Positions 5,485 to 62,165 of a DNA stretch of 64,000 nt are shown here, one piece after another (the stretch's first letter is position 1; every line of letters begins with the position of its first letter). Both the position numbers and the translations under genes were made by a program. This stretch comes from a bacterium (lineage in GTDB: Bacteria; Bacillota; Sulfobacillia; UBA995), in the NCBI GenBank assembly GCA_031082145.1, contig JAVHLP010000005.1, forward strand, positions 98,676-162,675, read 5' to 3'. Below the pieces are notes generated by a model. That model saw only the letters and a list, made by a program, of their open reading frames with translations, was not told where the DNA came from and made no database searches.

Positions 5485-5492
5485 GATTGCGT

Positions 5493-5568: not shown

Positions 5569-5601
5569 GAATCAGAGCTTATAGCAGGGATAGGAAGATG
5601 T

Positions 5602-6798: not shown

Positions 6799-6850
6799 GG
6801 TAGCTCACCTCCTCCCGCGAGGTCCTACAGGCCCAGTAGCTGCTTCTTGA

Positions 6851-8745: not shown

Positions 8746-8818
8746 TTGAGTTCCCCCAGCCTCAGCCGCATCGCCTCTCTCAATACACCGACCATCCTGG
8801 AGAGCGCCGGCACTCCTG
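8746..8818 (-). pseudogene. Relic of an ImmA/IrrE protease C-terminus
   Basis: The minus strand reads VPALSRMVGVLREAMRLRLG, nearly the same as VPALARMFGVSREALRLRLG in the intact ImmA-like gene at 11009-11587. The DNA is about 80 percent alike to 11141-11208. No HExxH part precedes it. The 8549-9047 stretch holds this relic plus the doubtful ORF 8780-9070 and nothing else that could be recognised. Confidence 0.6.
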
Positions 8819-9947: not shown

Positions 9948-10056
9948 CGGCGTTCCCTCCCAATCAGTCGTGGCTGTCGCATCCCTACTACCGGCAGGCC
10001 CGGAGCCCTGCAGGTCTCCTTGTCAGACGGTAGACCATTGACAGGAGCACGCCAGG

Positions 10057-11587: not shown

Positions 11588-11610
11588 GTGCTGTCAGTCA
11601 CCCCGCTGAG

Positions 11611-12111
11611 TCAGGTTGAGTCCGGGCGCTCCCGGTCCCGAGCCGCCAGGCGCTGTTTGGCGTCCTTGACGGCCTCGGCGATCGAGATCAGGCTTTCAGC
11701 GTCCATCTCCTCGAGCGAGGCTGCAGCACGCAAGTATATCTGGACTTCAGATGATGCGAGCAGATCTCGCACAGCGGGGTGTTTGACTGCCTCGAGGAAG
11801 GCCGGGTTGTTCAGGATGGGTCGGAGGGTGGGGTCCAGGGAGTCGGCTTCGGGCAGACCCAACAGGTAATCCGTGCTCACCCTGAGGAAAGCACCCAACT
11901 TCTTGAGCACGTCCGACGGAGGGACGCGGTCACCGGTCTCATACTTGGAGACTGCCCAATACGACAGCCCCAGCTCCCGGGCCAGCTCTTCACGCGTTAG
12001 CCCAGCGTCTTCTCGCAGGCGCTTTATGCGCTGCCCGATGTCCAATGGCTGCACTCCCAACGGCGGATTTAGCACAGGCAGTCCAATTCCCTGCCTGATC
12101 CAGTTGGACAT
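11611..12111 (-). CDS. XRE-family prophage repressor
   Basis: 166 residues. The helix-turn-helix (IGQRIKRLREDAGLTREELA, then RELGLSYWAVSKYETGDRVP) is at about 25-75, and a helical C-terminal part (about 80-160) probably serves dimerisation. Transcribed leftward, away from the Cro-like gene, with two TGGAC-N5-GTCCA operators in between. This is the position and polarity of a CI-type lysogeny repressor. It lacks a LexA-like peptidase domain, so induction would depend on the neighbouring ImmA-like protease. ATG 12111 itself lies in a TTGGACAT half-operator sequence, hinting at autoregulation. Confidence 0.85.
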   Translation of the reverse strand: MSNWIRQGIGLPVLNPPLGVQPLDIGQRIKRLREDAGLTREELARELGLSYWAVSKYETGDRVPPSDVLKKLGAFLRVSTDYLLGLPEADSLDPTLRPILNNPAFLEAVKHPAVRDLLASSEVQIYLRAAASLEEMDAESLISIAEAVKDAKQRLAARDRERPDST

Positions 12112-40042: not shown

Positions 40043-42784
40043 ATGAACGTAGGCGAACTCTTCGTCCGCCTGGCGATGGACTACAGCCAGTACGACCGGG
40101 ACGAGCGCACGGCCAGAAGCCGGGTCACCAGCCTTGGGGGAACCCTGTCCGGCATCATGAAGAACGCCTTCAGCTTCTCTTTGGGGCTCGGCCTGGTCCA
40201 GGGTTTTCGCTCCCTGTCCGGAGCGGTGACGGACTTTGTAAACACGGCAGCACGCACCGACGTCCTCAACATCGCGATGCAATCAGTGGCCCGTTCATCT
40301 GGCTATGCGGTAGATGCCCTGAGTGAGCATAAACAGGCCGTCATGGAGAAGGGCATTGCCGAGCAAGAGGCTACTCAGATCCTTACCCGGTTCATGCAGG
40401 CACAGCTAGATACAGTCGATGCCGCCAGGCTAGCCCGCGTGGCCCAGGATGCCGCCGTGATAGCGGGCTTCAATTCCTCCCAGGCGGCGGAGCAGATGAC
40501 GGAGGCCATCGCTAAGCAGCGCCCGGAACTGCTGTCCGCCTTCGGCATGACCCGGAACATGAACGATATCTATGCGGACTATGGGCGAACTGTGGGCAGG
40601 ACGGCCGCGCAGCTGACCGAGGCGCAGAAGAAGCAGGCGATGCTCTCGTACATTCTGTCGGAGGGCGAGAAGATTGCCGGGACCTACGAGGCCAGCATGG
40701 GGGCGGTCGGAAAGCAGATTAGCTCTCTGCCCAGGTTCTGGGACACGCTGAAGAATGCCATCGCCAGACCGTTAGCACTGCCCGCGGTGAGCGTGGTTGT
40801 CGAAGGCATCACCAACGCGCTTAGGAATGGCATTGCCTGGGCAGAAGCCAACCAAGCGATGCTGCAACGATGGGGTCAGTCCATCGCTAACGCCGTAACA
40901 ATGGCCTGGCGCTGGATTCTGGGGTTTGCGCGCTCGGTAGCCGCACACTGGAGCGTTGTACGGCCTCTGACTATTGGCGTGGTCTGGGCGTTCATGACCT
41001 TCAGGGCCGTGTCGATTGCCCTGCGCGGAGTTGAGGCAGCTACAAGGACGCTTCTGTTGACGACGCGGCTCCTCAAGGGGCAGATGGACGCCACCAGCAT
41101 CTCGTCCATCTTCTTGAGGCGAGTGGTAACAGCCTACAACGCATCAGCCGCCGCGGGAGCCATCACTAGCTTCACATTCGCGGGAGCATTGAGCGTGCTC
41201 AAGGCCGCGATCCGCGCGGTCTGGACCGCCCTCGGCCCGATCGGGTGGACCATCTTAGCCATAAGCGCCGTGCTCGGCATTGGTGTCGGTGCGTGGAACA
41301 AGTACTCCACCTCCGTCCAGCAAGCCGCTCAGAAGGCGCAGATCGAGAAGATGGCCGCGCAGCAAAAGGCTTACATAGAGAGCGTCAACAAGGCAGCCGC
41401 GGGCACCAACGCGCAGGCGGACGCCCTCGGCGACCTCGGCAAGGCCTCCAAGAGCAACCTCCAGTCCTTTGATGAGGTCCACTCTCTGATGGACGAGATG
41501 GCCGACGCAGCGGCACCTTCTCTCGACATGACCGCTCTCGGCGTACCGGAGTTGCCCGGGCTGTCGATGGATACGTCCGACCTGTTCGCAGATCTCACTG
41601 GCCAGACGGAAGGCGCAAAGGCCACCTTGAGCGGCTTCTTCGGTTGGCTCAGGGACCGAGTCACCGGCAACCTGGCTGAGCAGAGGGATATCTGGTCGGG
41701 GATCCTGGGCGACGTGCTGGCCACATGGAGCTCATGGTGGGAAACGGTCAAGACCAAAGCCGGAGACGGGGTCGCCGCGATCAGCAGCAAGTGGGCTCAG
41801 ATGAGGGACGGCGTGGCCACGTGGTGGGCGGGGATCACCGGTGACCTGAGCGCATGGTGGGAACGGGTTTGGACGAACGCCGGAGAGACATGGGAAGGCG
41901 TCCGGTCTACCATCGCCGACAAGTGGAACGCGTTGAAGACCGACGCGCCGGTTGTCTGGGAAAGCATCAAGTCCACCATCGCTACCCGGTGGCAGCGCCT
42001 GAAGACAGATGCCCCGGTCTTGTGGGAGGACATCAAGCAGAGCATCTCAACCCGCTTCGAGCAGGCCAAGTCGAGCGTGATCACCGCCGCTCAGAGCATG
42101 CGGGACAAGGCTCCCGAGGCCTGGGCCACGCTGCTGGCCCGGATCCGGGAGAAGAAGGATGACCTCTTCAGTGCGCTCACCGGGCCGTGGGATGACGCGA
42201 AGGCCACAATCCTCGGCCTGATCGACTCGGCCAAGAACTGGGGCAGGAACCTGGTCGACAACATCTCGGACGGGATCAGGGAGAAGATGGCCTCGGTCAG
42301 GGACGCCGTGAACGGCGTCGCCGATATCATCAAGGGCTGGCTGGGCTTCGGGTCACCGACAGAAGAGGGCCCGGGCCGCCACGCCGACCGGTGGGCTCCC
42401 AACCTCATGCGGATGTACACCGACGGCATCCTGGCCAACCTCGGCAGGGTCCAGGCCGCGGCCCGTGATGTAGCCGAGAGCCTGGTGCCAACGACCCCAA
42501 TGCCCAGTCCGGCACTCCTCCACCTGCCGGAGCCGGTCCGCCCGCTGCGCGACGGCGGCGCGGAAGTCGGCGGGGGCGCTGAAGTCGCCGCCGACGCTAT
42601 GGGCCAGGCGGTCTATGCCGCCCTCCGGGATGCGTTCCTGGTCGAGCGGGCCCGGGGCGGCTCCGAAGACCGCGAGCTGGTGCTGCAGGTCGACGGGCAG
42701 CGGCTCGCTCGGCTCCTGATCCCCGCGATTCGGCGGGAGGAACAGAGAACGGGTGTCCGGACGCTGCGCTTGCAGGAGGTGTAG
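40043..42784 (+). CDS. Tail tape measure protein
   Basis: 913 residues. The start LFVRLAMDYSQYDRDERTAR is usual for tape measures. A hydrophobic middle (TFAGALSVLKAAIRAVWTAL, GPIGWTILAISAVLGIGVGA) and Trp-rich helical repeats follow (SSKWAQMRDGVATWWAGITG, STIADKWNALKTDAPVVWES). At the usual rise of about 0.15 nm per residue the tail would be near 135 nm. GTGATGAA at the start is weak; GAGGTGA lies upstream. Confidence 0.92.
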   Translation: MNVGELFVRLAMDYSQYDRDERTARSRVTSLGGTLSGIMKNAFSFSLGLGLVQGFRSLSGAVTDFVNTAARTDVLNIAMQSVARSSGYAVDALSEHKQAVMEKGIAEQEATQILTRFMQAQLDTVDAARLARVAQDAAVIAGFNSSQAAEQMTEAIAKQRPELLSAFGMTRNMNDIYADYGRTVGRTAAQLTEAQKKQAMLSYILSEGEKIAGTYEASMGAVGKQISSLPRFWDTLKNAIARPLALPAVSVVVEGITNALRNGIAWAEANQAMLQRWGQSIANAVTMAWRWILGFARSVAAHWSVVRPLTIGVVWAFMTFRAVSIALRGVEAATRTLLLTTRLLKGQMDATSISSIFLRRVVTAYNASAAAGAITSFTFAGALSVLKAAIRAVWTALGPIGWTILAISAVLGIGVGAWNKYSTSVQQAAQKAQIEKMAAQQKAYIESVNKAAAGTNAQADALGDLGKASKSNLQSFDEVHSLMDEMADAAAPSLDMTALGVPELPGLSMDTSDLFADLTGQTEGAKATLSGFFGWLRDRVTGNLAEQRDIWSGILGDVLATWSSWWETVKTKAGDGVAAISSKWAQMRDGVATWWAGITGDLSAWWERVWTNAGETWEGVRSTIADKWNALKTDAPVVWESIKSTIATRWQRLKTDAPVLWEDIKQSISTRFEQAKSSVITAAQSMRDKAPEAWATLLARIREKKDDLFSALTGPWDDAKATILGLIDSAKNWGRNLVDNISDGIREKMASVRDAVNGVADIIKGWLGFGSPTEEGPGRHADRWAPNLMRMYTDGILANLGRVQAAARDVAESLVPTTPMPSPALLHLPEPVRPLRDGGAEVGGGAEVAADAMGQAVYAALRDAFLVERARGGSEDRELVLQVDGQRLARLLIPAIRREEQRTGVRTLRLQEV

Positions 42785-42787
42785 CCC

Positions 42788-43144
42788 GTGGCGCCGGTGA
42801 CCATCAACGGACAGCCCATCGCCAATGCGTCAGAGATAGAGCGAGGCCAGTTCCGGATAACCAAGGCCGAGCGCACTGCGGACGGCACCATGGTCATGGA
42901 CCTGATTGCCATCAAGCACAGGCTGGACCTGCGCTGGAACCGGATAGCCGAGGCCAGCTACAAGGAGATCCTGAACTTGCTCGCGGGTGACGTGTTCTAC
43001 CAGGTGGCCTACCCCGACCCGCAGGCTCCAGACGGTCAACGCACCATCACGGCTTACGTCGGCGACATCACCGACGGGGTCTGGCAGCGGGTGGGTGGCG
43101 TGAGGTACTTCCGGGACGTGCGGATAGGCCTGATCGAACGGTGA
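42788..43144 (+). CDS. Small tail protein
   Basis: 118 residues from GTG 42788, beta-rich (VTINGQPIANASEIERGQFR, GDVFYQVAYPDPQAPDGQRT, TAYVGDITDGVWQRVGGVRY). Position right after the tape measure and size suggest a distal tail or baseplate accessory. Confidence 0.6.
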   Translation: MAPVTINGQPIANASEIERGQFRITKAERTADGTMVMDLIAIKHRLDLRWNRIAEASYKEILNLLAGDVFYQVAYPDPQAPDGQRTITAYVGDITDGVWQRVGGVRYFRDVRIGLIER

Positions 43145-43168
43145 CCGAGCGGGAAGGGGGACGGTGAG

Positions 43169-43375
43169 ATGCAGGGAGACGGCATGCGCCTGAGCGTGAC
43201 GGTCAAGACCCGGCTGAGCAAGTACGGCGAGGGCCAAGCGCCCGACGGAGCCGAGCCGTTCGAGACCATCGAGCGGGAGTACGTGCTCGAGGGCGACGAG
43301 GCACTCGAGGTGCTGCGGCAGGCCGGAATTGACCCGAGCAGCATCGGCAAAGGAGGGAACGAGCTGTGCCGCTGA
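43169..43375 (+). CDS. Hypothetical tail-region protein
   Basis: 68 residues, GGAAGGGGGACGGTGAG upstream of ATG 43169. Sequence MRLSVTVKTRLSKYGEGQAP and EREYVLEGDEALEVLRQAGI, no family. Overlaps the next gene by 10 bp. Confidence 0.55.
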   Translation: MQGDGMRLSVTVKTRLSKYGEGQAPDGAEPFETIEREYVLEGDEALEVLRQAGIDPSSIGKGGNELCR

Positions 43376-43746
43376 CCAATGCAGGATGCAACTTCATGGC
43401 CGGGGCGCTGACCGGTCACGAGACCACCCTGTTCAACAACGCGAACGCGCGGATCGGCGTGGGGGACGGGACCACGGCCTTTTCCGCGACCCAGACCGAC
43501 CTCATGGGGACCAACAAGTTCCGCAAGGGCATGGATGCTACGTTTCCGACGAGGTCCACCAACGTGCTCACGTTCAAATCGACCTTTGCTTCGGGGGAGG
43601 CGAACTTCGCCTGGCAGGAGTGGGGCGTGTTCAACGCCGCCTCAGCCGGCCCCATGCTCAACCGGCTGGTCGAGAACAACGGCACTAAACTCAGCGGGCA
43701 GACCTGGGTCTTCGAGGTGCAGTTGACGGTCAACATCGGCAGCTAG
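43366..43746 (+). CDS. Small tail fibre-like structural protein
   Basis: 126 residues from GTG 43366 (AAAGGAGG upstream). NANARIGVGDGTTAFSATQT, DLMGTNKFRKGMDATFPTRS, FAWQEWGVFNAASAGPMLNR resemble the small beta-rich phage proteins that accompany tail fibres and baseplates. Confidence 0.6.
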   Translation: MPLTNAGCNFMAGALTGHETTLFNNANARIGVGDGTTAFSATQTDLMGTNKFRKGMDATFPTRSTNVLTFKSTFASGEANFAWQEWGVFNAASAGPMLNRLVENNGTKLSGQTWVFEVQLTVNIGS

Positions 43747-43756: not shown

Positions 43757-46700
43757 ATGAGTGAGCAGGGGAGATACACGAGCGTCGATCAGGTCCAGGA
43801 CAGCATCCTCGACCCCGCCCGCAAGTGGCTCTCGCTTCATCGCAACAGCCTGGACGGCTCGTGGCATCCCCTCGACTCCTCGATGCAGGCACAGGTTGGC
43901 TGGTGGGGGACGAGGCTGTCCGGGGCCGACGGCATCCTGGACCCCGTGTCGGTCCTGGATTTCACCCACGAGTCCAGGTCGGTTCATGTCCTCCGCGTGG
44001 TCGGCGACAGTCTGCTGGGCGAGTATCCGGTCGACTTCGCAGTGCGGCTGTATGACGTCGGCGGCGCCCTGCTTCACACGGAGACCGTCACCGGCAACAG
44101 CGAGGTCGTGTGGCGCAAGGCCATCCCGACCATCGACGGCGTGACCCGGGTGACGGTCACCGTCAGCCGCATCAGCCGGGCCGGCAGCGTGGCCAAGATC
44201 CTCGAGGCCCTGAACCCGTTCGAGGTGATCCGGGAGGACACTCTCCGGCCTACCGCTGCCGAAGCCACAGGCTACATCGGAATCGGTCTCACCTCGGCGG
44301 ACACTGTCCTGGTCAAGCTGGCCGAGGCTCGGAGCCTCACAGCGTCCATCGCACGCGTCGACACCTTGCAGCTGGCCCAGAGCCTTGAATCGGCCAAGAG
44401 CGTGACCGTGCAGGCGGCCGGGGCCGACGTACTGCTGACGGTCATGAGCGAGAGTCGGCAGCTGACCGCCCATCTGCCCGTCCGCACTGATGGACTCGTT
44501 GCTCGGATGGGCGACACTGGCGTCCTCACCGCCGTTGTAGCTCGTGCCGATGCGCTTGCGATTGCCTTGGCAGAGCAGTCCCATCCCATTACGGCCTCGC
44601 TCATCGGACTGGATGCACTGCTACCGGCATTCGCCGAAGCCCGTGCCGTCGTGGTGCTGCTCCCCACGCGCGCGGATGCGCTGCACCCGGTACTCGCTGA
44701 CCAAGGCGCACTGACAGCCTTGGTGAGTGCCCTGGATGAGGCGAAGGCTAGCCTCGCCGAGACAGCGCACGCAACAGCCCAACTCACTGGCATCGACCAG
44801 CTGCTCCTGGTGGCCCTGGAGCACTGCACCCGACATCTGACGGCTGCCGACGCACTCGCCCCGAGTGTCCAGGAGCAGGCTGCGGCTACAGTGGCCCTGG
44901 CCGTCCGCATGGATGTCGCGACAGTCCATGGGGCCGAGTCTCGATCGCTCACTGCGGCGATCGGCCGGAATGACGCGCTGACCGCCAGCGCTGCAGAAGC
45001 GGCGCAGCTCACGGCCGAGTTGCCCACACGGACGGACAACCTGGCACCTCGGGTGAGCGATGCCGGGCAGGTTACGGCGGAACTGGAAACCCGTGTAGAC
45101 AGCCTCACCGTGCAGACGGGCGAAACATGGGGCATCACGGCTCTGCTCGGCGCGCTGGACGCCTTGGCGGCAGCGGTTGCAGAGATTCGACAGGTGACCG
45201 CCTACGTCCCCGCCAGTGATCTCCTCTCGGTACAGCTTGCTGATGGACTGGTCCGGATACGGGTCATGGCTACAGCCTCGGACCGCCATAGCCAGGTCGA
45301 CCAGGTCAAAGACGGCATCCTCGAACCGACCCGCAAGTGGCTGAGCCTACAGCACAACCGGCTCGACGGGTCGTTCCATCCTATGGATGCCACCCGTCAG
45401 GAGCAGGTTGGCTGGTGGAGCATCGTCCGGTCCGGGCCTGACGGGTCACTGGTCCCGCCTGTCGTCCTTGAGTTCGAGCTACCGTTCGCCGGGGTAACGT
45501 ACTGGGCCCCCTGGCAGTGGGACTTCACCGGGTGCGAGGGGTACCTGCCTGGCGACCCCGGCAAGTCCAACGGCCAGAACGTGCTCAACATCGGCGGCAA
45601 CTGGCACTTTGCCATGCACTACAGCGCCGAGAGCGCCTACTGCGAGGTGCGGCATGAGGGCGGGCTATACGGTCGCAGCTACATCCGTATCATGGATGAC
45701 CCCGAGCACACCTGGAAGGCCTGCTTCAGGCGCACTGAGTATCAGCTGCAGGCTGGCAAGTGGTACCGGGCGAGTGTTGCTGCACGGTGCGAGGAAGAAG
45801 TCCGGGGCTCGTCGGTATACCTGGCCTACAGCTCGCTGGAGGCGCGGCTGCGCATCACGGCGTCCTGGGGTTCAAACGGCCTCGGCCCGGGCAAGGGCTG
45901 GGTCCGCAGAGAAGCGCGGTTCCGGGTGCCGGACGATGCGGCCAGCCTCTGGGTAGGTCCATACCTCTATGGACATACGAACCACAACGGCACGGTAACG
46001 GCCATCGAGTACGATGGTTACATCCTGGAGGGTCCGTTTGACACTGATCCGGGGCCACTGCCGACACGTCCCGTCCACACCCTCCAGGTCGTCGGCGATA
46101 GCCTGCTGGGCGAGCACCCTGTAGATTTCGCGGTCCGGCTCTACGACCTGGCCAACACGCTCCTGCATACCGAGACGGTCACGGGTAACACGCAGATCCA
46201 CTGGATGCGAGCGCTTGCCCAGACCGTTGAGGCCACGAAGGTCCGGGTTGAGATCGGCCGGTGGAGCCACGCCGGGCGCGGGCCGAAGATCGTAGAAGCT
46301 CTGAATCCATTCGAGATCGTCCGCGGCGACACGGTCCGGCCAACGGTGGCCGAGGTCGCCAACTACATTGGGCTGGGGCTTGCGTCGGCGGATACCCTCC
46401 TGGGCGCGCTGGCCGAGGCACGGGGCGTAACCGCATCCCTGGTCCGGTCTGATGCGCTCCAGCTCCTGTTGGCCGACCTGGTCGCAGCTCTGACAGTCGA
46501 GACCTCCCGGACGGACTTGTTGCTGCTGGCCGTGAGTGAGAGCCGGCAGGTAACCGCCGGCCTGGCCAAGGCGGACAGCCTGCTTGTGCGGGGCGACGAG
46601 GCAGCCGGCTACATCACAACGCTGCTCGCGGCGCTCGACTCGCTGGCGGTAGCCCTGGCCGAAGGGCGAGCGGTCACCGCCCAGATTCTGAGGCCAGACG

Positions 46701-49279
46701 CCATTGAAATCAGGACTGATGAGACGGCCCGAGCGGTAACGGCCAATCTGGGTGGCGCCGATACGCTGGCCTCTCTGCTGGCCGAGAGCGCGGGGCTCAT
46801 CGCGCAGGTTGCCCGCTCGGACTCACTCGTGGCCGTGACAGTCGATGGGCCGTCCACGATGACCGTCCTGGTGATGCCCGGTCTCGATTCGCTCAAGATC
46901 TATGGCGCAGAGGGCCCTGGGTGGGTCATGGTTCTCGCGGGGACTGCTGACGCCCTCGGGCTTCACCTGGCCGACAGCTCAATCCCAGTGATCGCGGTGC
47001 TGCCCGTCCGAGCCGACACCATGGCGCCTCTCCTCACCGAGCTCGGGCAGGTGGAGGCTCAGCTGCCGGTACGCACGGACGGGCTGCTGGTCCAGGTGGG
47101 CGAGGGCAAGGCCCTGACTGCCATGCTCGCCAGGGCCGATGCACTGCTCCCCTGGCTGGCTGATTTGTCACAGCCGGTGAGCGCGCTCTTGACTGCGGCC
47201 GATGTCCTGTTGCCGACGACCGCCGACGGCCAGCTGTCGATGACCGTGCTCCTGCCGACGCGCGAGGACCTTCTCCGCGTGGCCCTGGGCGAGCAGGGCA
47301 TGATGTCGCGGCTGCTGGGTGCGCTGGACCAGCTCCGGGTCCAGATGGGCGAGGCGCGGGCGGTCACCGTGGAGTTGGCGGCCCTTGACGCGCTGTTGGC
47401 ACTGGCCATAGAGCGATCTGCCCGGCGCAGTGTCCACGAGGTGGTGAACTTGCCGTTGCGCCAGCTGTACGGGAAGGTCGAGATCACTTACACTGACCCC
47501 TTCCTCGATGAGACGATTGAGGCTGAGGCTACCGAGACGGGCCGCTACACCTACCCGGACCAGACGGCCGACAACGTCCTGGAGTCGCCGCACAAGTGGC
47601 TCAGCTTGCATCGCAACGTCCTGGACGGGACGTTTCACCCGCTGCCGGCGGATCGGCGCTTCAGCGTCGGGTGGTGGGGTGCCACTCTGGCCAACGCCTC
47701 CGGAGTACTCAGCCCAGCTCCGCAGTTGACGATCCGCTTCCTCCCCCGGCCGGTGTTCGAGCTGCAAGTCGTGGGCGACGGGCAGCTTTGCGAGTATCCG
47801 GTGGATTTCGACATCAACCTGCTGGACAACCAGGACAACCTCCTCCACCGCGAGGTCGTGACCGGTAACGCCGAGGTGATCTGGCATAAGACCCTGGCAG
47901 CACCGGTGACGGGCGTCGCCCGGATGGTGCTCACCGTCCGCCGGATCTCTCGGCCCCTGGCGGTGCCCAAAGTCGTTGAGCTGTACACCTCGGTCGTTGA
48001 GACTTACGAGGGGGCAGACCTCGTCGCGATCCGGCTCACGGAGGAGATGGAACCTGACAGCGCCACCACCCTGGCGATCGGCAACATCTCCGCTAACGAG
48101 CTGGTGGTGCGACTCAACAACACGAGTCGCCGCTTTGATGCCGGCAACCCCTACAGCCCGCTGCGGGGACTCCTCCGGCCGAACCGCCGGCTGCGAGCGT
48201 GGATCGGCGTCGAGGTCGTCGAGGGAGAGATCGAGTGGCATCCGCTCGGCCTCTTCTGGACGCAACACTGGCGGTCGCCTGAGACCGAGATCTACGCGGA
48301 GGCCACCGGCTGGGACCGGCTGGAGCTCCTGCGCGCATCGGAGTTCGACGGAGGGGTTTACCAGGATCACTCGCTCTACGAGCTGGCCGAGCTCGTGCTC
48401 GCCGACGCCGGCCTGGAGCCGGAGGAGTACGTACTGGACTCGCAGCTGGAGTCCATCGTCGTGCCCTGGGCGTGGTTCGAGGCAACGAACCACCGGGGGG
48501 CCCTGCAGCGGATAGCGGCGGCCGCGCCGGGGCGGGTCTACTGCGATCGCGACGGCCGCATAGTGGTCCAGGTCTACGAGCCGCCTCCCGACCCGCAGTT
48601 CACGTTCGACCGGTCCAACGTGTTCCGGAAGGACCACCCTGTCCCGTGGTGGCAGGTGGTCAACTACGTGGAGGTCCGCACGTCGCCACGGATGCTCTCG
48701 GAGCCTCTCCAGGTGCACTCGAGCACCGAAGCGTTCGTCGTCCCGGCCGGCGGCGAGGTCGAGCGGGTACATGCCTTCGACTCCCAGCCTGTAACCGAAG
48801 CTCAGGTTCCCGAGATCGAGGCTGGCCCGGACGTGACGGTGGCTGACTGGCACGCCTACGCCGACCGGATGGTCGTCCGTTACGCCAACGCCGGGGCCCA
48901 AGACCAGCAGGTCACCCAGGTCACCATCTCCGGCCGGAGGCTCGAGCGCACGAGCGGGACCCTGGCCGTGGCACGGGACGATGAGTCCATCCGGCAACTG
49001 GGCCGCCAGGCTCTGCCGGAGCCCGTCGAGCACGAGTGGATCCAGGGCACTGCGCGCGCCCAGGCCATCGCTGACGGTCTGTTGGCCGCGTACAGCATCC
49101 CGCGTCGCGATCTGTCCATAGAGGCACGGGGCAATCCGGCCCTGAGGCTGGGCGACCGCGTGCGGGCCGCCGAGTACCTCGACCTGGTCTATGCCGACTA
49201 CTACATCTGCCGCCAGGTCGTGGAGTGGGACGGCGGACTTAAGGTCTGGCTTGACGCGCAAAGGATTCCTGACAGCTAG
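43757..49279 (+). CDS. Giant modular tail/baseplate protein with repeat arrays
   Basis: 1840 residues. A module of about 150 residues (RKWLSLHRNSLDGSWHPL ... VVGDSLLGEYPVDFAVRLYD) occurs three times: 1-155, about 510-865 and 1253-1415. The second copy is split by a lectin-like insertion (about 573-768; WDFTGCEGYLPGDPGK, AGKWYRASVAARC, GGNWHFAMHYSAESAYCEVR). Between the copies are 16 and 17 repeats of about 21 residues (consensus DxLxVxLAExRxLTAxLxRx). The last 420 residues (IGNISANELVVRLNNTSRRF, GWDRLELLRASEFDG, LRLGDRVRAAEYLD) resemble the tail hub/baseplate proteins of siphoviruses. Probably a tail-tip spike or host-binding protein. Confidence 0.85.
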   Translation: MSEQGRYTSVDQVQDSILDPARKWLSLHRNSLDGSWHPLDSSMQAQVGWWGTRLSGADGILDPVSVLDFTHESRSVHVLRVVGDSLLGEYPVDFAVRLYDVGGALLHTETVTGNSEVVWRKAIPTIDGVTRVTVTVSRISRAGSVAKILEALNPFEVIREDTLRPTAAEATGYIGIGLTSADTVLVKLAEARSLTASIARVDTLQLAQSLESAKSVTVQAAGADVLLTVMSESRQLTAHLPVRTDGLVARMGDTGVLTAVVARADALAIALAEQSHPITASLIGLDALLPAFAEARAVVVLLPTRADALHPVLADQGALTALVSALDEAKASLAETAHATAQLTGIDQLLLVALEHCTRHLTAADALAPSVQEQAAATVALAVRMDVATVHGAESRSLTAAIGRNDALTASAAEAAQLTAELPTRTDNLAPRVSDAGQVTAELETRVDSLTVQTGETWGITALLGALDALAAAVAEIRQVTAYVPASDLLSVQLADGLVRIRVMATASDRHSQVDQVKDGILEPTRKWLSLQHNRLDGSFHPMDATRQEQVGWWSIVRSGPDGSLVPPVVLEFELPFAGVTYWAPWQWDFTGCEGYLPGDPGKSNGQNVLNIGGNWHFAMHYSAESAYCEVRHEGGLYGRSYIRIMDDPEHTWKACFRRTEYQLQAGKWYRASVAARCEEEVRGSSVYLAYSSLEARLRITASWGSNGLGPGKGWVRREARFRVPDDAASLWVGPYLYGHTNHNGTVTAIEYDGYILEGPFDTDPGPLPTRPVHTLQVVGDSLLGEHPVDFAVRLYDLANTLLHTETVTGNTQIHWMRALAQTVEATKVRVEIGRWSHAGRGPKIVEALNPFEIVRGDTVRPTVAEVANYIGLGLASADTLLGALAEARGVTASLVRSDALQLLLADLVAALTVETSRTDLLLLAVSESRQVTAGLAKADSLLVRGDEAAGYITTLLAALDSLAVALAEGRAVTAQILRPDAIEIRTDETARAVTANLGGADTLASLLAESAGLIAQVARSDSLVAVTVDGPSTMTVLVMPGLDSLKIYGAEGPGWVMVLAGTADALGLHLADSSIPVIAVLPVRADTMAPLLTELGQVEAQLPVRTDGLLVQVGEGKALTAMLARADALLPWLADLSQPVSALLTAADVLLPTTADGQLSMTVLLPTREDLLRVALGEQGMMSRLLGALDQLRVQMGEARAVTVELAALDALLALAIERSARRSVHEVVNLPLRQLYGKVEITYTDPFLDETIEAEATETGRYTYPDQTADNVLESPHKWLSLHRNVLDGTFHPLPADRRFSVGWWGATLANASGVLSPAPQLTIRFLPRPVFELQVVGDGQLCEYPVDFDINLLDNQDNLLHREVVTGNAEVIWHKTLAAPVTGVARMVLTVRRISRPLAVPKVVELYTSVVETYEGADLVAIRLTEEMEPDSATTLAIGNISANELVVRLNNTSRRFDAGNPYSPLRGLLRPNRRLRAWIGVEVVEGEIEWHPLGLFWTQHWRSPETEIYAEATGWDRLELLRASEFDGGVYQDHSLYELAELVLADAGLEPEEYVLDSQLESIVVPWAWFEATNHRGALQRIAAAAPGRVYCDRDGRIVVQVYEPPPDPQFTFDRSNVFRKDHPVPWWQVVNYVEVRTSPRMLSEPLQVHSSTEAFVVPAGGEVERVHAFDSQPVTEAQVPEIEAGPDVTVADWHAYADRMVVRYANAGAQDQQVTQVTISGRRLERTSGTLAVARDDESIRQLGRQALPEPVEHEWIQGTARAQAIADGLLAAYSIPRRDLSIEARGNPALRLGDRVRAAEYLDLVYADYYICRQVVEWDGGLKVWLDAQRIPDS
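44300..45250 (+). repeat. Protein-coding repeat array 1 (about 63 bp, 16 units)
   Basis: Translated units of 20-22 residues each begin with D and share the pattern DxLxVxLAExRxLTAxLxRx, e.g. DTVLVKLAEARSLTASIARV and DGLVARMGDTGVLTAVVARA. DNA copies are degenerate. Confidence 0.8.
46391..47425 (+). repeat. Protein-coding repeat array 2 (about 63 bp, 17 units)
   Basis: Same unit as array 1, e.g. DSLAVALAEGRAVTAQILRP and DQLRVQMGEARAVTVELAAL, in the second half of the giant tail protein, between the second and third duplicated modules. Confidence 0.8.
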
Positions 49280-49291
49280 GAGGCGATGCCG

Positions 49292-50113
49292 ATGAGTTCA
49301 CAGCCGCAGGGTTGGCAGACACCGAAGACCGACTGGACGCCGGCTGACGGCGTAGCCGACGCGGACATCAACCGCATAGAGGGCAATGCCCAGGCGACGG
49401 AGTTGGGGGACCGCACGGTGGACCCCGATCTGTCACCGTCCAGCAACGTGGGCACCCTCCGCCAGCTCCTGAGCTGGTTCGCCAACCGGATCAAGGCCAT
49501 CACCGGCACTACCAACTGGTGGGACGCGCCGGCGGCCACCCTCGGGACGATCTGGGGCAAGTTCCATGCTTCCACCGGTCACGGTCACACCGGTGGGACC
49601 GCCGACGGCCCCAAGGTGGGGACCACCGGTCTGGCCGATGGTGCGGTCACCGAGGCCAAGCTTGGCTCGGGCGCCGTGACCTCAGGCAAGCTGGGCGCAC
49701 TTGCGGTCATAGCCGGCAAGATCGCCGACGGGGCGGTTGACACCCTGGCGCGAATCGCGTCCGGCATCCGGACTTCCGCCGGCGGCACCGAGGCCAACCG
49801 GCTGGCGGTAACCAACTCGTCGGGGCGGGTGGGGGATTCGGAACGGTTAGGAGGACAACTACCCAGTGCTTATGCGCCGCCGCACGTAGAGGCGAAGATC
49901 TCGGCGGGAGAGGCCTCCAATGAAAGCGTTACGTGGACGACGGCCTTCGCTTCTACTCCGATAGTAGTCGTGAGCCCCTTCGTGGACCATGACACGTCCC
50001 GCATGGCGTGGGTTCGCTCTCGCAGCACCACGGGGGCAACAGCTCAGGTCCGGTATCACGACAACGCGACGGCTACAGACCCCAAGCTCTTTATTGCCGT
50101 AAGGGCAACGTGA
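49292..50113 (+). CDS. Tail fibre / receptor-binding-like protein
   Basis: 273 residues from ATG 49292 (AGGAGG eight bases upstream). The N-terminus SSQPQGWQTPKTDWTPADGV is an attachment segment, the middle has fibre-like repeats (GHGHTGGTADGPKVGTTGLA, GAVTEAKLGSGAVTSGKLGA), and the C-terminal domain is FASTPIVVVSPFVDHDTSRM, which resembles the H-type or gp-like tip of phage fibres. Likely contacts the host surface. Confidence 0.75.
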   Translation: MSSQPQGWQTPKTDWTPADGVADADINRIEGNAQATELGDRTVDPDLSPSSNVGTLRQLLSWFANRIKAITGTTNWWDAPAATLGTIWGKFHASTGHGHTGGTADGPKVGTTGLADGAVTEAKLGSGAVTSGKLGALAVIAGKIADGAVDTLARIASGIRTSAGGTEANRLAVTNSSGRVGDSERLGGQLPSAYAPPHVEAKISAGEASNESVTWTTAFASTPIVVVSPFVDHDTSRMAWVRSRSTTGATAQVRYHDNATATDPKLFIAVRAT

Positions 50114-50130: not shown

Positions 50131-50487
50131 TTGCAGGAAGTCACGATCCGGTCCGATCCGTCAGAAGATAGCCCTCGGCCTTGGTTCGAGTTCGAGTTCA
50201 ACGAGAAGAGCCTGGCTGTTACGGTGTCCCGCATTCGAGGGCTCTCCCGAGCACTCGGGCGTAGCGATAGGGCGCTGGAGGACTCCCTGGAGGGAAAAAC
50301 GGTCGCCCTTCAGCTGAACCCCGACCGGGCGACCGAGATTCACGTCCTCGCCGTGACCCTCGACGGCGAGCTCGAGTTCGTGGCGGAGTCGCAGCAGAGG
50401 CCCATCTACTATGCTCACCTGGCCTGGTACGACCCGGTCAAGCGGGAGGCAAAGGTGCTCAAGTTCGTCGAGGAGTCGCAGAGATGA
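50131..50487 (+). CDS. Small phage protein after the fibre gene
   Basis: 118 residues from TTG 50131, with GGGAGG eight bases upstream. WFEFEFNEKSLAVTVSRIRG, ALQLNPDRATEIHVLAVTLD, YYAHLAWYDPVKREAKVLKF. Beta-rich, no family recognised; perhaps a fibre chaperone. Overlaps the peptidase gene (ATGA). Confidence 0.6.
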   Translation: MQEVTIRSDPSEDSPRPWFEFEFNEKSLAVTVSRIRGLSRALGRSDRALEDSLEGKTVALQLNPDRATEIHVLAVTLDGELEFVAESQQRPIYYAHLAWYDPVKREAKVLKFVEESQR

Positions 50488-51263
50488 CCGTGCAAGTGAC
50501 CTCCCAACTCGCCGGGTCGTTCGTGGTCGACGGCACCCCCATACGGTCAACGGGTTCCGCCTGGCCCGGGACGGAAGGCGAGGTCAGGGACATCCTCGGG
50601 GCCCTGGCTCTGCCCGTGCGGTTCTTGGAGCCATTCCGGGTGGTCCTGGTGCAGGGGGTGCTCGACGGGGCCCCGGCCTGCCTTACCTCTGCAGGCACGG
50701 TAGTCATTGGCGCTGCATTCGAGTCACCCCGGACCCGCCTGGAGGACCTGGCCTGGCAGCTCTGTCACGAGCTCGGGCACTTGTTCGATCTGCGCTATCT
50801 CGGCAACTCCGCCTGGGGCCTGGCCTACCGGAGCATCCGGAGACGGCTGGACCCACCAGAGCGTTATGGTGGCCACTGGCCCGAGTGGCCGGCGGAGGAC
50901 TTCCGGCTCCTGTTCGGCCCGCCGGAGGCCCGGGTGGCACCGCATAAGATGCTCGACGCCCAGCGGGGCATCACCCCCGAGGCCGTGGCTGCAGACCTAC
51001 CCGAGATCCGGGGACTCATGCAGGCCGCTGTCCTCGCCCGGGCCCGGCCGCCGGCCAATCGCCGGGTGGTGCTCACCATCGGCTCCAGGCACGCCCGGGT
51101 TTCTGAAGGACCCGGCACCGCCCGGATCCTCGAGATGGACGTGGCTCCGCACATCTCTGCCGGCCGGACCTGGCTGCCTGTGCGGTGGGTAGCCGAAGCC
51201 CTGGGATGTCGCGTCGACTGGTACCCGCCTGAGACGGTTGTGTTGGAGGAGCAGGACCGGTAG
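50484..51263 (+). CDS. Zincin-like peptidase with C-terminal copper-amine-oxidase-N-like domain
   Basis: 259 residues, no signal peptide. HELGH is at 95-99 (WQLCHELGHLFDLRY), with WPAEDFRLLFGPPEA near 137, the same HExxH plus AEDFRLL layout as in the MuF C-terminus. The last 65 residues (VVLTIGSRHARVSE, AGRTWLPVRWVAEALGCRVD, WYPPETVVLEE) match the stalk-like copper amine oxidase N-terminal domain that Bacillota use to attach proteins to the cell surface. Lies between fibre and lysis genes. Possibly virion-associated or released at lysis. Confidence 0.75.
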   Translation: MTVQVTSQLAGSFVVDGTPIRSTGSAWPGTEGEVRDILGALALPVRFLEPFRVVLVQGVLDGAPACLTSAGTVVIGAAFESPRTRLEDLAWQLCHELGHLFDLRYLGNSAWGLAYRSIRRRLDPPERYGGHWPEWPAEDFRLLFGPPEARVAPHKMLDAQRGITPEAVAADLPEIRGLMQAAVLARARPPANRRVVLTIGSRHARVSEGPGTARILEMDVAPHISAGRTWLPVRWVAEALGCRVDWYPPETVVLEEQDR

Positions 51264-55447: not shown

Positions 55448-55495
55448 GACTCACATTCAGGAGGTCACTGGTTCAAATCCAGTACCGCCCACCAT
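55448..55495. repeat. attR core (48-bp direct repeat, copy 2)
   Basis: 48 bases identical to 5521-5568, the tRNA-Val 3' half including CCA. The 5' part of the tRNA is absent here, so this is the displaced copy marking the right prophage junction. Confidence 0.95.
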
Positions 55496-56647: not shown

Positions 56648-57829
56648 CTACCCCTGTTGCTTCTTCGTGGCCTCGTCACCGCCAAACACCAGAGCGTCAA
56701 ATCGGTCTGCAGCCTCCTGCTCAAGCGAGGGCGTAACATGGGCGTAGGTGTCCATCGTAAACCCTGTACTGAAATGCCCCAGGCGGTCGGAGATCACCTT
56801 GGCCGGTGTGCCAGCCTGCAGGAGCGCTGTGGCATGCGAATGGCGAAGGTCATGGAACCGTAAAGTGGGCGGTAACGCTGCCGCCTTCAGCAAGCGTGGG
56901 AAGTAACGCTTGCTCAGCAGGTCAGGCCGCAGAGGCTTGCCGTCTCTTTGAGTGAAGACGTTGCCGCTGTCCACGTACCCCTCGCCGTGGACCAAACGCT
57001 CCTTCTTCTGTTCGATGCGCCACTGCCTTAGGGCCTCAACCGAGGAATCCGGTAGCTTCACGCGCCGCCGGCTGCGCGCCGTCTTGGGTTCCTGGGGAGT
57101 GGGCCGTCCGGCTACCATCACAAGAGTGCGGCGCACCATCACCGTCCCCAAGTCGAGGTCAACGTCTTCCCAGCGAAGCCCGCAAATCTCACCCCGCCGC
57201 ATTCCGGTGCTCACTGCCAACATCCACAACGGGTACAGCCGATCCTGATGAGCTGCCTCCAGAAGGGCGCGGATGCCTTCAGCCCCGAGGGCCTGCATTT
57301 CCTTCCTCGGCACCTTCGGAGGGTCTGCCTGTGCTGCGGGGTTATAGGCTGCAATGCGCCATTTGACCGCCAGAGCTAAAGTCCGGTGAAGTACGGCGTG
57401 GCAGTACCGGGTGACACGAGGGCTGACGCCCTTCTCCAGGAGCCCAGCATAGAACACGTTGATCTGGCCGGGGGTCAGCTTCTGGACTGGCACGTGGCCG
57501 AGAACGGGGAGGATGTGGAGCTTGATCGTGCGTTCATAGCTGTCCAGGGTAGTCGGGCGAAGGTTGCGACGGGCGAAACCCTCAAGGTAGTGGGTCAGCA
57601 GTAGCTCCTCAAGCCTCATGCGGCTGGGGGCGGTGATGCCCCCGGTCTCCAACTGGTTTAGCCAGTCCCTCAACAGCCGTTCAGCCTCCCGCTTGGTCTT
57701 GGCCGTCTTGGACCGGAGCCTTGGCGCTCCGGTGGTTGGGTTGCGCCCCACGTAAACGATAACCTCGTAGGAGTGGCGCTCCTCGCCCTTCTTGGTGGTC
57801 CACTCCTTCTTGCGGATGTGCCCCCTCAT
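56648..57829 (-). CDS. Second tyrosine integrase
   Basis: 393 residues from ATG 57829 (GGAGGGAGG upstream; the frame continues upstream but is not coding-like). Arm-binding N-terminus, core-binding domain (about 70-175), catalytic residues R211 (STGMRRGEICGL), H326 and R329 (FHDLRHSHAT), H352, Y362 (MDTYAHV). Same general type as the prophage integrase but clearly different in sequence. It reads toward the tRNA-Val repeat at 55448-55495, so it may belong to another element using the same site. Confidence 0.93.
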   Translation of the reverse strand: MRGHIRKKEWTTKKGEERHSYEVIVYVGRNPTTGAPRLRSKTAKTKREAERLLRDWLNQLETGGITAPSRMRLEELLLTHYLEGFARRNLRPTTLDSYERTIKLHILPVLGHVPVQKLTPGQINVFYAGLLEKGVSPRVTRYCHAVLHRTLALAVKWRIAAYNPAAQADPPKVPRKEMQALGAEGIRALLEAAHQDRLYPLWMLAVSTGMRRGEICGLRWEDVDLDLGTVMVRRTLVMVAGRPTPQEPKTARSRRRVKLPDSSVEALRQWRIEQKKERLVHGEGYVDSGNVFTQRDGKPLRPDLLSKRYFPRLLKAAALPPTLRFHDLRHSHATALLQAGTPAKVISDRLGHFSTGFTMDTYAHVTPSLEQEAADRFDALVFGGDEATKKQQG

Positions 57830-58542
57830 CTCGTTGCCTCCCTCCTGGAGCAGTCTTCCTACGGAATGATAACACACTCGGACTAGTTTGGAAAGTCTTT
57901 GGATATGCATGAAGGACGGCCTATGTACCTGCGCAAACCGACTGCCCTCCTGATACAACATCAGGTGCAGGGAGGGGCGGCCTTGGTTGGGGTTGCATGA
58001 TGAGTCAGACCATTGGCCTGGCGGGTGCCGGGGGTGGTTCCGAAGGCCCCGGCCTGTTAGGCCATTGACGTTGTCCCATACGCTTAGCCAACGCAAAAGG
58101 GTGCACGTGATCATGCACTAGGGGGCATTCCTGGAGTGTGTCCGAATGAGTGAAGCGGTAGGACCTGTCGTCATCAGACTATAGCTCTCCACTCCCCGTG
58201 GTGGGCGGGCTGGCGACGAATTGGGGGCGTTCTGGGACAGTGATCCATCGGCTGTAGTCTCGATCCATCGCCGTTCGGTAGCATCGTGCCTCGGTGGCCG
58301 CTATGATCCTGCGCTAGTCATCCCCGCCTGACAGAGTAACACGTAGCAGAAGCAACCCTAGAGCCACGCCAGCGGAAGCTGTTGGACCTGTCCACAAAAG
58401 CCCACACGATCAGAGTCAAACGCGGAAGGTCACGAGAGTCAACCCGTCAAACCGTACGGATGTGACACAAGCACCGCGTCGTTACGCTCCGACCACAACG
58501 CTGAGATGCGGGGCCGATCCTGCCGGAAGGAGAAGAAGGCGT
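57830..58542. other. Intergenic region between second integrase and restriction operon
   Basis: No convincing coding frame of any length. It contains one copy of a degenerate intergenic repeat (58147-58241) and, next to 58462, an open frame upstream of the true methylase start. No tRNA or other RNA gene recognised. Confidence 0.5.
58147..58241 (+). repeat. Degenerate intergenic repeat, copy A
   Basis: Shares the order TGAG-(x)-GTAGGACCTGTC ... CTCTCC-CTCCCCGTGGTGGGCGG, then GCTGGCGACGAATTGGGGGC with copies at 62331-62441 and 63325-63442. The central part can form a hairpin. Confidence 0.55.
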
Positions 58543-60771
58543 ATGCTTGAGATCAGGACTGACTGTAGAGGCAGCATTTGGTCGCATGTTCGCCAGAAAT
58601 GGCTTGTTGAGACCCCCGAAGAGCGCGTTCGCCAGTCCTACCTGGCTGTTCTGGTCAATGAATACGACTTCGCTCTTGAGCAGATCGCCGAGGAGGAATC
58701 CGTCACAGGCCGGGGCGCTGGTCAAGCCCGTGCCGACTTCCTTATCTGGCGCAGCGTTCAGGATAGATCCGACAATCGACCGGCCCTGATCGTGGTTGAG
58801 TGCAAATCGGATAACGTCACGATTCAGCCCGAAGACTACTTCCAAGGCGACAACTACGCTCGGCGCGAGGGTGCTAAGTTCTTCGTCACCCACAACACCC
58901 GCGAAACTCGCTACTGGCGCGTACGCACCGATCGCCGTCCGGGTTACCTGGAGGAAATCGAGGACATACCGCATGCGGACGCAACGGACAAGGACATCGA
59001 AGACCTAATCGCCAAGTTGAAGGTCTTCAAAGAAGACGAGTTCGCCGACCTGCTGCACCAGTGCCACAACATTATCCGCAACCGCGAACACCTGGACCCC
59101 GCCGCCGCCTTCGACGAAATCGCCAAGGTCCTCTTCGTTAAGACTCACGTTGAACGCGACCTCAAGGCGAAGCGCCAGCGTCAGAATCGCTTCACCGTTG
59201 ATTACCTGCGGAACCTGCCGGGCCACGATCCATTAAACCTGCTATTCACAGACACCAAAGAGGCATACAGGGCCGACGAGATCTTCGCTGCCACCGACCG
59301 AATCAACCTGAAACCCGCCACCGGAGAGGAAGTCGTGGCGAAACTCGAACGCTATAACCTATCCGATACCAGCGAAGACGTGAAGGGGATCGCCTTTGAA
59401 CGGTTCCTGGGCAGGACGTTTCGCGGTGAAATCGGCCAGTTCTTCACGCCCCGACCCATTGTCGAGTTCATGGTTCGCATGGTTGACCCTCAGGAAGGAG
59501 ATGTCGTGTGCGATCCGGCCAGCGGTTCTGGCGGTTTCCTGATTCGGTTCTTCGAACTGGTTCGCGAGCAAGTCCTTGCAGACGTAGACCGGCAGTATAG
59601 GGAGTACGTCGATAGCTTGAGCATCGAAGAGATGACTGAGAACCACGCGAGGCTGCTCCGAGCCAAGCATGACGAATTGCAGGCCACCATCGACCAATCC
59701 GAGTCCGACTCCCGTCTTTGGCGGCTCGCGAACCGCTGTATCTATGGCTGCGACGCCAACGACCGCATGGCTCGAACGTCCAAGATGAACATGATCATGC
59801 ACGGTGACGGACACGGTGGCGTTCATCACCACAACGGCTTCATCAACGTCAATGGCATCTTCGAGGGCCGCTTTGACATCATCCTGACCAATCCGCCCTT
59901 TGGAGCCACCGTCGAACCGTCCGACCGCATCACTTCCAGCGACGTTCGCATAAGCGATGAGGAGTACCGCCGCTATGTTGAGTGGTACGGCCAAGCCTAC
60001 AAAGACGCCCAGGCCAGCTTACAGCGTCACGCAGATGATAGGGTCCCGATAGCGTCCCTCTTTGAGCTCCCAAAGCGTGGCGACGGAAAGCGGAAGCTCG
60101 GCAGAGTCAAGACAGAGATCCTCTTCATCGAACGGTGCCTGGCGTTGCTCAACCCCGGCGGCCGCTTGGGCATTGTCCTGCCCGAAGGCATCTTCAACAA
60201 CCCGTCCCTGGCATACGTCCGCGAGTTCTGCGAAGATCGCGCTTTCATCCGGGCCGTCGTCAGCTTGCCCCAAGACACGTTCTACTCCGCCGGGGCGTCG
60301 GTTAAAGCGTCCCTGCTGTTCATGCAGAAGTTCACCAAGGAAGAAGCCGCCGATTACGCGGCTAAGCAGCAAGCTGCAATCGACGAAGTTGACGCGGAAC
60401 ACCAGCGCGAGGTAGAGTCGGAGACCGCCCGATTCCGGGAGGAGATTGATGCAGCGAAGAAGGCCAAAGACGCCGACCGACGCAAGGCTGCCCAGATAGA
60501 ACTGAGGCAGTACGAGAAGCGGATGGCTTCGATGAAGGCCGTGAAAGCCCGGCGGTTGCTCAAGGAGCGATTCGACTACCCTATCTTCCTGTATAACGCT
60601 GAACATGTCGGTATCACCGCCACCGGCGAGCAGGACACCTGCGAACTCTACCCAGACGACATGCTGGGCCTTCCGCCAGGAATGGATGCTGGGGAAACGG
60701 CGCTGGAGCAGTATAGGCGGTTTCGGTCGGATGCCCAAGCGTTCATCGTGGCCAGTGGGGGTGACGGATGA
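58543..60771 (+). CDS. BcgI-like restriction-modification subunit (nuclease plus N6-adenine methylase)
   Basis: 742 residues from ATG 58543 (GGAAGGAGAAGAAGG upstream). The N-terminal HSDR_N-like nuclease domain (D65, E86, K88 in ADFLIW and IVVECKSD) is fused to a HsdM-like methylase: GEIGQFFTPRPIVEFMVRMV, CDPASGSGGFLIRFF (D324) and TNPPFGA (450-453). A coiled coil (DAEHQREVESETARFREEID) lies near the end. This nuclease-methylase fusion plus a separate two-TRD specificity subunit is the architecture of BcgI-type (type IIB) enzymes that cut on both sides of the site. ATGA overlap with the specificity gene. Confidence 0.88.
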   Translation: MLEIRTDCRGSIWSHVRQKWLVETPEERVRQSYLAVLVNEYDFALEQIAEEESVTGRGAGQARADFLIWRSVQDRSDNRPALIVVECKSDNVTIQPEDYFQGDNYARREGAKFFVTHNTRETRYWRVRTDRRPGYLEEIEDIPHADATDKDIEDLIAKLKVFKEDEFADLLHQCHNIIRNREHLDPAAAFDEIAKVLFVKTHVERDLKAKRQRQNRFTVDYLRNLPGHDPLNLLFTDTKEAYRADEIFAATDRINLKPATGEEVVAKLERYNLSDTSEDVKGIAFERFLGRTFRGEIGQFFTPRPIVEFMVRMVDPQEGDVVCDPASGSGGFLIRFFELVREQVLADVDRQYREYVDSLSIEEMTENHARLLRAKHDELQATIDQSESDSRLWRLANRCIYGCDANDRMARTSKMNMIMHGDGHGGVHHHNGFINVNGIFEGRFDIILTNPPFGATVEPSDRITSSDVRISDEEYRRYVEWYGQAYKDAQASLQRHADDRVPIASLFELPKRGDGKRKLGRVKTEILFIERCLALLNPGGRLGIVLPEGIFNNPSLAYVREFCEDRAFIRAVVSLPQDTFYSAGASVKASLLFMQKFTKEEAADYAAKQQAAIDEVDAEHQREVESETARFREEIDAAKKAKDADRRKAAQIELRQYEKRMASMKAVKARRLLKERFDYPIFLYNAEHVGITATGEQDTCELYPDDMLGLPPGMDAGETALEQYRRFRSDAQAFIVASGGDG

Positions 60772-62165
60772 TCACCGCGACAACGGCAGCACCCGGTCCA
60801 AGGTCCAACGCCTTTGCCGTCTGGTTTCGGGACCTTGAGCGGTGGAGTGTGGGAAGCTTCATCGCCTTGGACTGGCGTTGGCCGCGCAACATGATACGCC
60901 CGCTGGCCGAAGCCCTAGTCCGCAAGTCGAGTGAAGTGGATCGCATGACGACTAGCACTGACAAGCTCAAGCTGATAACGCTGCGGTTTGATGGCGTGAT
61001 CGAGCCACGCCAGCAGCACGGCAACAAACCGATCAAGGGCCGGCTGTGGTGGGCCGACGCCGGCGATGTGGTCTACTCGAGGATAGATGTTCGAAATGGC
61101 GCCATCGGTATCGTGCCCGATGACCTAGGCCGGGTCTGCGTCACCAGCGAATATCCTGTTTACGAGGTGGACCCAAATGTGGCCGACGCCGGCTACATCA
61201 AACTGCTGTTCCGCACGGTGACGTTTCGCCGCAAGATCAACGCGATGATTAGTGGGGCCAGCGGCCGCAAGCGGGTTCAACCTCCCGACTTGGAGGCGGT
61301 TGAGGTGCCTCTTCCTCCGCTGCCGGTGCAGCTCAGGATTGTTGCGTCGTGGGAGAAGGCCCAGGCGGAAGTAGCTGACACACAGCAACGTATCGCAGAA
61401 ATGGAACACCGGATGGAGATTGAGTTCCTCGCCGATCTGGGGCTCACCAAGCCGCAGCGAGTCAAGCTGCCCAGAGCGTCCGCGGTACAGTGGCGTCATC
61501 TGGAGCGCTGGTCCGTGATGTTCAACCAATCGGGCAGAGTGAGTGTGGACTTGACGGCAGGTTGGTATGCGGCGGTTCCGCTCCAAGAATGCCTGGAAGG
61601 GACAACGAACGGCTATTGTATCCGCCCTGTCAACAAAGAAACGCCCCATCGAATGCTGAAGCTGAATGCCCTTCAAGCGTGGGGCTTGGACGTGGAGCAG
61701 TCCAAGTTCGTGAACGTGTCCGAGGAGATCGCCAAGCGGTTTCATCTTGCCAGAGGCGACTTGCTCATCTGTAGGAGCATTGGCAGCTTCGATCATATTG
61801 CGAAGTGCGCAGTTGTTGAAGACGACCGAACGGACATATTGTTCCCCGATATCATCATCAGGGCGCGTCTTAACAGCCGGATAGAACCGTCGTATGCAAG
61901 AGAAGTCATTCAATCATCGGTCGGCCGAGCGTGGTTCCAGCAGAACGCGCGGACCGCCGTCGGGATGTGGAAAATTGGCGGCAGCGACATTGCTGCTTTT
62001 CCGATGCCCCTTCCCCCTCTACCCATTCAGCGAGAACTAGTGTCGAAGGTGATGACGCAGCGGCAGAGGATCGCGGCGCTGAAGGCTGAAGTCGAGCATA
62101 GAGCCAAGCAAGCCAAGACCGAGGTCGAAGAGAGAATCCTTGGAGATGAACCAGTTGGGGCATAG
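60768..62165 (+). CDS. Restriction-modification specificity subunit (HsdS-like, two TRDs)
   Basis: 465 residues. Two target recognition domains, about 80-195 (end VQPPDLEAVEVPLPPLPVQL) and 275-430 (end GGSDIAAFPMPLPPLPIQRE), each followed by a helix (ASWEKAQAEVADTQQRIAEM; MTQRQRIAALKAEVEHRAKQ). PLPPLPxQ is the typical TRD-helix junction of HsdS. Defines the DNA sequence recognised by the preceding subunit. Confidence 0.88.
   Translation: MITATTAAPGPRSNAFAVWFRDLERWSVGSFIALDWRWPRNMIRPLAEALVRKSSEVDRMTTSTDKLKLITLRFDGVIEPRQQHGNKPIKGRLWWADAGDVVYSRIDVRNGAIGIVPDDLGRVCVTSEYPVYEVDPNVADAGYIKLLFRTVTFRRKINAMISGASGRKRVQPPDLEAVEVPLPPLPVQLRIVASWEKAQAEVADTQQRIAEMEHRMEIEFLADLGLTKPQRVKLPRASAVQWRHLERWSVMFNQSGRVSVDLTAGWYAAVPLQECLEGTTNGYCIRPVNKETPHRMLKLNALQAWGLDVEQSKFVNVSEEIAKRFHLARGDLLICRSIGSFDHIAKCAVVEDDRTDILFPDIIIRARLNSRIEPSYAREVIQSSVGRAWFQQNARTAVGMWKIGGSDIAAFPMPLPPLPIQRELVSKVMTQRQRIAALKAEVEHRAKQAKTEVEERILGDEPVGA

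Follow-up and report, generated by a model that had tools for sequence, protein, structure and literature searches.

The window (the whole stretch of DNA analysed, 64,000 nucleotides) contained a siphovirus-type prophage of about 50 kb (5521-55495) in tRNA-Val, bounded by two identical 48-bp copies of the tRNA-Val end (5521-5568 and 55448-55495), with an integrase gene (5614-6798, minus strand) adjoining the left copy. An open reading frame for a tail hub-like protein of 1840 aa and 199 kDa with an N-terminal extension (43757-49279, plus strand) lay between the tape measure and fibre genes of this element. Upstream of it were portal, head and major tail genes, the tape measure gene (40043-42784, plus strand; phrog_58, E 5.9e-28) and small tail genes (phrog_1194, a 68-aa ORF and phrog_23653; 42788-43746, plus strand). 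Downstream were a tail fibre gene (49286-50113, plus strand; phrog_892, E 4.3e-8) and an amidase gene. The order, small tail genes included, was the same in a relative on another contig, L124. Between the fibre and amidase genes, positions 50484-51263 encoded a 259-aa protein with a domain of the copper amine oxidase N-terminal type (PF07833, E 8.4e-11), which is unusual in a phage lysis region. A third copy of the tRNA-Val attachment sequence (at least 40 bp) was present on the same contig about 12 kb past the right end of the prophage (67441 in window numbering; L026:4117). The interval between contained a second integrase gene (56648-58114, minus strand) together with type I restriction-modification genes for methylase (58462-60771) and specificity (60768-62165), and a second element is probably stacked in the same tRNA-Val behind the prophage.

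From its N-terminus, the 1840-aa protein consisted of module 1, array 1, module 2 with an insert, array 2, and a canonical phrog_13879 part (47447-49276, plus strand; residues 1231-1840) with the hub N-strand, module 3, the hub body and a C-terminal RGNPALxLGD motif. The match to phrog_13879 had an E value of 3.6e-77, its best stretch aligning residues 1230-1800 with profile positions 12-510 of 571; weaker matches were to phrog_10359 (E 1.5e-8) and phrog_1887 (E 2.3e-7), both with a tail or minor tail protein annotation. Canonical members of the phage tail family phrog_13879, to which no function is assigned, have about 540-690 aa, with an N-strand of the form RRVLGRVxIDYTDPF, one module copy and the hub body. 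They agree with residues 1231-1840, approximately, in full-length domain order and in the RGNPALxLGD motif, but are without the 1,230 extra N-terminal residues, the two further modules and the two arrays of the window protein. The earlier note had called this a tail protein, which both the tail-family profile matches and the tail-gene neighbourhood confirm, and had overlooked that the C-terminal third is a complete member of a known tail family, one that looks like the tail hub. The protein looks like an N-terminally extended hub rather than a free-standing fibre.

Members of phrog_13879 were present in 14 of the 299 genomes searched in this phylum, the present one included, and relatives were further found at 79 viral loci and at 17 genome loci, the latter nearly all from Bacillota. 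The YQBQ-like family PF24032 matched it weakly (E 0.0068-0.058, below its cut-off), Phage-tail_3 matched one family member only (E 0.0019), and the family profile had no match among PDB sequences. The whole 1840-aa protein had no close relative in the viral contigs.

Three copies of one module were present, at residues 9-159 (43781-44233), 510-856 (45284-46324) and about 1262-1430 (47540-48046), all on the plus strand, and only copy 2 was split by an insert (residues 573-767, about 195 aa; 45473-46057, plus strand); both features had been described in the earlier note. Copy 1, placed by canonical alignment and an HMM match and assigned its fold by homology to copy 2, lacked the hub N-strand found in front of the module in canonical proteins. 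Copy 3, placed by alignment, lay within the canonical part. Copies 1 and 2 had 60% amino-acid identity (dN 0.32, dS 1.34), which indicates that they are old and constrained by purifying selection. Modelled by AlphaFold2 with 53 alignment rows, module 2 had a pLDDT of 85-98 over most of both halves. Its best PDB matches with Foldseek were the F5/8 C (discoidin) proteins factor V, neuropilin b1b2 and factor VIII (probability up to 1.00), and lower matches included sialidase modules and a fucose-binding module. The module is thus confidently predicted to be discoidin-like, a character missed in the earlier reading, and resembles the F5/8 C domains in fold but differs from them in having no sequence match in Pfam.

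The likeness of the insert to carbohydrate-binding modules was weaker. The insert-bearing query matched the xylan-binding CBM22 structures 1dyo and 1h6y at the level of fold (Foldseek probability 1.00, E 0.006-0.008, TM about 0.41 on the target), but the insert was modelled at low confidence (pLDDT about 24-74, in blocks) and, unlike CBM22 modules, had no sequence match to Pfam, the CBM22 profile included, or to PDB sequences. A search of the viral contigs with the insert found no relative. The insert may be CBM22-like in fold, and the stalk-like arrangement with a carbohydrate-binding-like insert that had been proposed earlier was upheld to that extent, the role of the stalk being putative.

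Array 1 (44234-45277, plus strand; residues 160-507) consisted of 17 units of about 20.6 residues and array 2 (46325-47446, plus strand; residues 857-1230) of 18 units, or 35 units in all with degenerate edge units included; the 16 and 17 units (33 repeats) counted in the earlier note hold without those edge units. Self-similarity peaked at offsets of 20, 21, 41 and 62 residues (z up to 8.7 in array 1 and 9.4 in array 2), and units ranged from 18 to 22 residues in length. The consensus proposed earlier was recovered over 34 scored units as xDxLxVxLAExRxLTAxLxR, with the Asp conserved in 34 of 34 units, a Leu two residues on in 28 of 34, and an acidic residue (Glu or Asp) at the eighth position after it in 33 of 34. 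A paired-unit HMM made 15 strong matches to the 1840-aa protein (565 bits in total), whose own units had trained it. An HMM made solely from array 1 gave array 2 a score of 116.2 bits, the highest score among about 1,960 composition-shuffled sequences being 19.3, and one made solely from array 2 gave array 1 a score of 140.6 bits (shuffle maximum, 9.0).

Tandem Repeats Finder reported no array at the DNA of either repeat array, and the arrays are therefore not recent DNA duplications. The arrays were colinear at their starts, where units 1.1 and 2.1 and units 1.2 and 2.2 were mutual best matches, and again mid-way, where units 1.5-1.7 paired with 2.13-2.15 at a displacement of eight units. This pattern suggests that module and array were duplicated as one and that units were gained or lost afterwards.

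The earlier note had described the repeat as of an unrecognised type and had proposed a profile search with it, and no library match emerged: whole-protein searches of Pfam, PHROGs and NCBIfam gave no match to the repeat of about 21 residues, and the best match of the repeat profile among PDB sequences had an E value of 0.78. Across the 348 genomes searched in this phylum, the joint repeat profile found only the window gene, and none in the 347 others besides two chance matches (G246 and G343; E 6e-4 and 0.005), which were rejected as they overlapped metabolic and glycosidase-like genes. Searches of phages and plasmids by tblastn with the arrays or the consensus returned nothing real, a result that is no proof of absence as the low-complexity filter probably masks these queries. 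One such match, to an Arthrobacter plasmid (E 8), had no phage genes nearby and was rejected as chance.

The same layout was observed in two relatives. L124 encoded a protein of 1132 aa with an N-terminal DUF2341 domain (E 3.2e-23), nine SGSDTLLLTLSDSVALTALL-type units and then the canonical part. In the protein of L070, a viral contig, an insert interrupted the module where it does in the window protein; about six degenerate units followed, and then the canonical part. In both, the array was N-terminal to the hub, between carbohydrate-binding-like domains and the hub. The joint repeat profile, to which both relatives contributed rows, scored 117.6 bits with L124 and 88.7 bits with L070, and a profile made from window units only detected L124 at an E value of 8e-5. 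The window protein, L070 and L124 belonged to one five-member clade (support 100/99) with L043 and L123 of Paenibacillus abyssi, which had no significant array; two N-terminal units of L043 that look repeat-like by eye scored 0.9 bits, were not significant and were not counted. The L124 array used as a query found no relative in the viral contigs. The contig of L124 was binned as a Euryarchaeota MAG, its tail genes were of Bacillota phage type, and it possibly represents phage DNA that was binned in error.

The beta pattern attributed to the repeat in the earlier note agreed with the hydropathy alternation, the proline position and the predicted strands. In strand 1 of the repeat, hydropathy alternated with a power of 56.6 at 180 degrees against 9.7 at 100 degrees, and Pro occupied one strand-1 position in 24% of units; together these fit a beta and not an alpha pattern. 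Low-confidence helices appeared in models of both arrays (for array 2 in its first units, in one of two AlphaFold2 models), and an alpha-helical array is unlikely given the hydropathy and the proline positions. AlphaFold2 modelled array 1 at a mean pLDDT of 44.8. Low-confidence predictions had been named beforehand as an argument against the proposed stalk fold, and low confidence was in part obtained, but with an alignment at most four rows deep it does not refute a fold of the array. Over the first 110 residues or so, where 3-4 rows were aligned, regular 8-residue strands parted by 2-residue turns were predicted at a pLDDT of about 60-73. A Foldseek search with the array 1 model returned nothing significant (best E 0.11, probability 0.20 or less), and the best of these non-significant matches were mostly left-handed beta-helix enzymes.

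These strands and turns, the single hydrophobic face of strand 1 and the kind of enzyme matched by Foldseek are what a monomeric two-sided beta-solenoid would give, with one unit per rung and rods of about 8-9 nm. This arrangement is plausible at somewhat less than even odds, given that the Foldseek matches and the mean pLDDT of the model speak against it and that the length of the units varies. A repeat made of two short alternating strands and tight turns would also suit a trimeric triple beta-spiral as in the adenovirus fibre shaft, the extension then forming one rigid three-stranded fibre from the hub trimer. The adenovirus shaft repeat has a Gly/Pro turn, unlike the present repeat, whose two turns have a conserved Asp and Asp/Glu, and the modules that separate the arrays would need to cope with chains joining and leaving a shared three-stranded shaft. 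The low confidence of a monomer model would be expected if three chains were needed, and Tal hubs are trimers (PMC3893620); a triple beta-spiral nevertheless appears rather doubtful. With either fold, the arrays would resemble viral fibre shafts in making stalks from short repeated strands, but they had neither a sequence match nor a significant fold match to them. Spacers that are flexible or in part disordered, have no defined fold and matter by their length alone would account for the low model confidence, the low-complexity Ala/Leu-rich composition and the freedom of unit sequences to diverge. They are quite unlikely, because the Asp present in every scored unit, the acidic residue eight positions on in nearly all of them, the alternating hydropathy and a pattern common to both arrays and kept between phages at about 40% identity or less indicate a folded structure.

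The repeat unit may have been amplified from the first strand of the hub behind the module (DLVAIRLTEE), along with the duplication of the module, an idea that can be put forward only tentatively. This strand was the best of 605 positions of the window hub for the strand-1 profile of the repeat, it lies just behind module 3 as the arrays start behind modules 1 and 2, and the homologous site had a median rank of 2 in 63 scored family ORFs. The likeness was noticed after the fact, and the ranks are not independent, as the members are related and partly redundant. The pattern by which the site was picked also has hydrophobic positions in common with the repeat. The signal was also weaker in the nearest relatives, the site ranking only 10th in L043, the closest relative scored, and for ten residues of beta strand a chance likeness is easy.

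The protein is probably a Tal-like tail-tip hub of the siphovirus prophage, extended at its N-terminus by two sets of discoidin-like module and beta-repeat array of about 21 residues per unit, which would form putatively glycan-binding arms. The matches to phrog_13879 and other tail PHROGs, the tape measure and fibre neighbours and the gene order in L124 support this reading; against it, the likeness to known hub folds (PF24032) appears weak at the sequence level. As a hub, the protein would be placed as a trimer at the tail tip, anchored by residues 1231-1840. The arrays would be beta-stranded stalks or spacers of variable length, holding putative glycan-binding domains off the tail, namely module 1 and module 2 with its CBM22-like insert, with module 3 in the hub. 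With such stalked arms, the phage could reach further and gain avidity for sugars of the cell wall or capsule.

In siphophages that infect Gram-positive bacteria, CBM-bearing adhesion proteins of the evolved Tal and evolved Dit types are known, and evolved Tals include two CBMs in the gp27-like N-terminal domain (PMC7291167). The window protein shares with them carbohydrate-binding-type modules on a tail-tip protein, one CBM-like (discoidin-like) domain lying between hub strands and two more in the N-terminal extension. It differs in that discoidin- and CBM22-like modules are here carried on long repeat stalks at the N-terminus; the Tal extensions described in PMC7291167 are C-terminal, and a long N-terminal extension of a tail hub is unusual. 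The decorated tail hub looks like a known device for host recognition and the uncatalogued stalk repeat like the new part. Tail-hub decorations decide cell binding in many siphophages, and long stalked N-terminal hub arms are little described. Should the repeat prove to fold in a defined way, it would fill a gap in protein-family libraries and be a candidate modular rod.

Elsewhere in the family, decorations occupied fixed sites. LamG-type lectin domains lay around profile position 270-280 in L089 and L102, and around position 400 there was a second module in L011 and L023 and RCC1-like repeats in G156; a third fixed insert site was inside the module. The discoidin loop, the two hub sites and the N-terminus are filled by different lectin-like domains. 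Repeats of 20-22 residues, unrelated in sequence to that of the window, were found in hub-linked ORFs of L133 (INGxSxVDINxIRxRLY, period 20, z 6.7; ORF 9602-12000), L087 (ITGESNLTSAAKRLRTNRSN, of ITGESNL... type, z 10.7; ORF 9587-10390) and L083 (FELxAxL, period 22, z 6.7; ORF 5404-6672). The recurrence of one repeat length in hub genes supports a putative role as stalk or spacer, and arrays on a scale of 2 to 35 units could be adjustable spacers. Speculatively, the window repeat would represent a new class of viral stalk repeat, with two 8-residue strands per unit of about 21 residues and possibly amplified from the first strand of the hub, by which tail hubs grow N-terminal arms that differ in length (about 6, 9, 17 and 18 units); the unrelated 20-22-residue repeats of distant relatives would then be convergent on the same geometry.

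The hub was distributed over more than one ORF in at least nine relatives (L022, at 5609-6844 and 7532-9379, L133, L087, L103, L106, L113, L118, L119 and L117). In these the first part stopped near profile position 380-440 and the second half was encoded further on by another ORF, often preceded by a decoration of RCC1-like repeats, Ig-like domains or 20-residue repeats; the split hubs may be split genes, introns or frameshifts. A second break or large insert near profile position 270-280 was present in L099, L105, L110, L112 and others, with the hub halves in separate ORFs in several members, up to 2.4 kb apart in L105.
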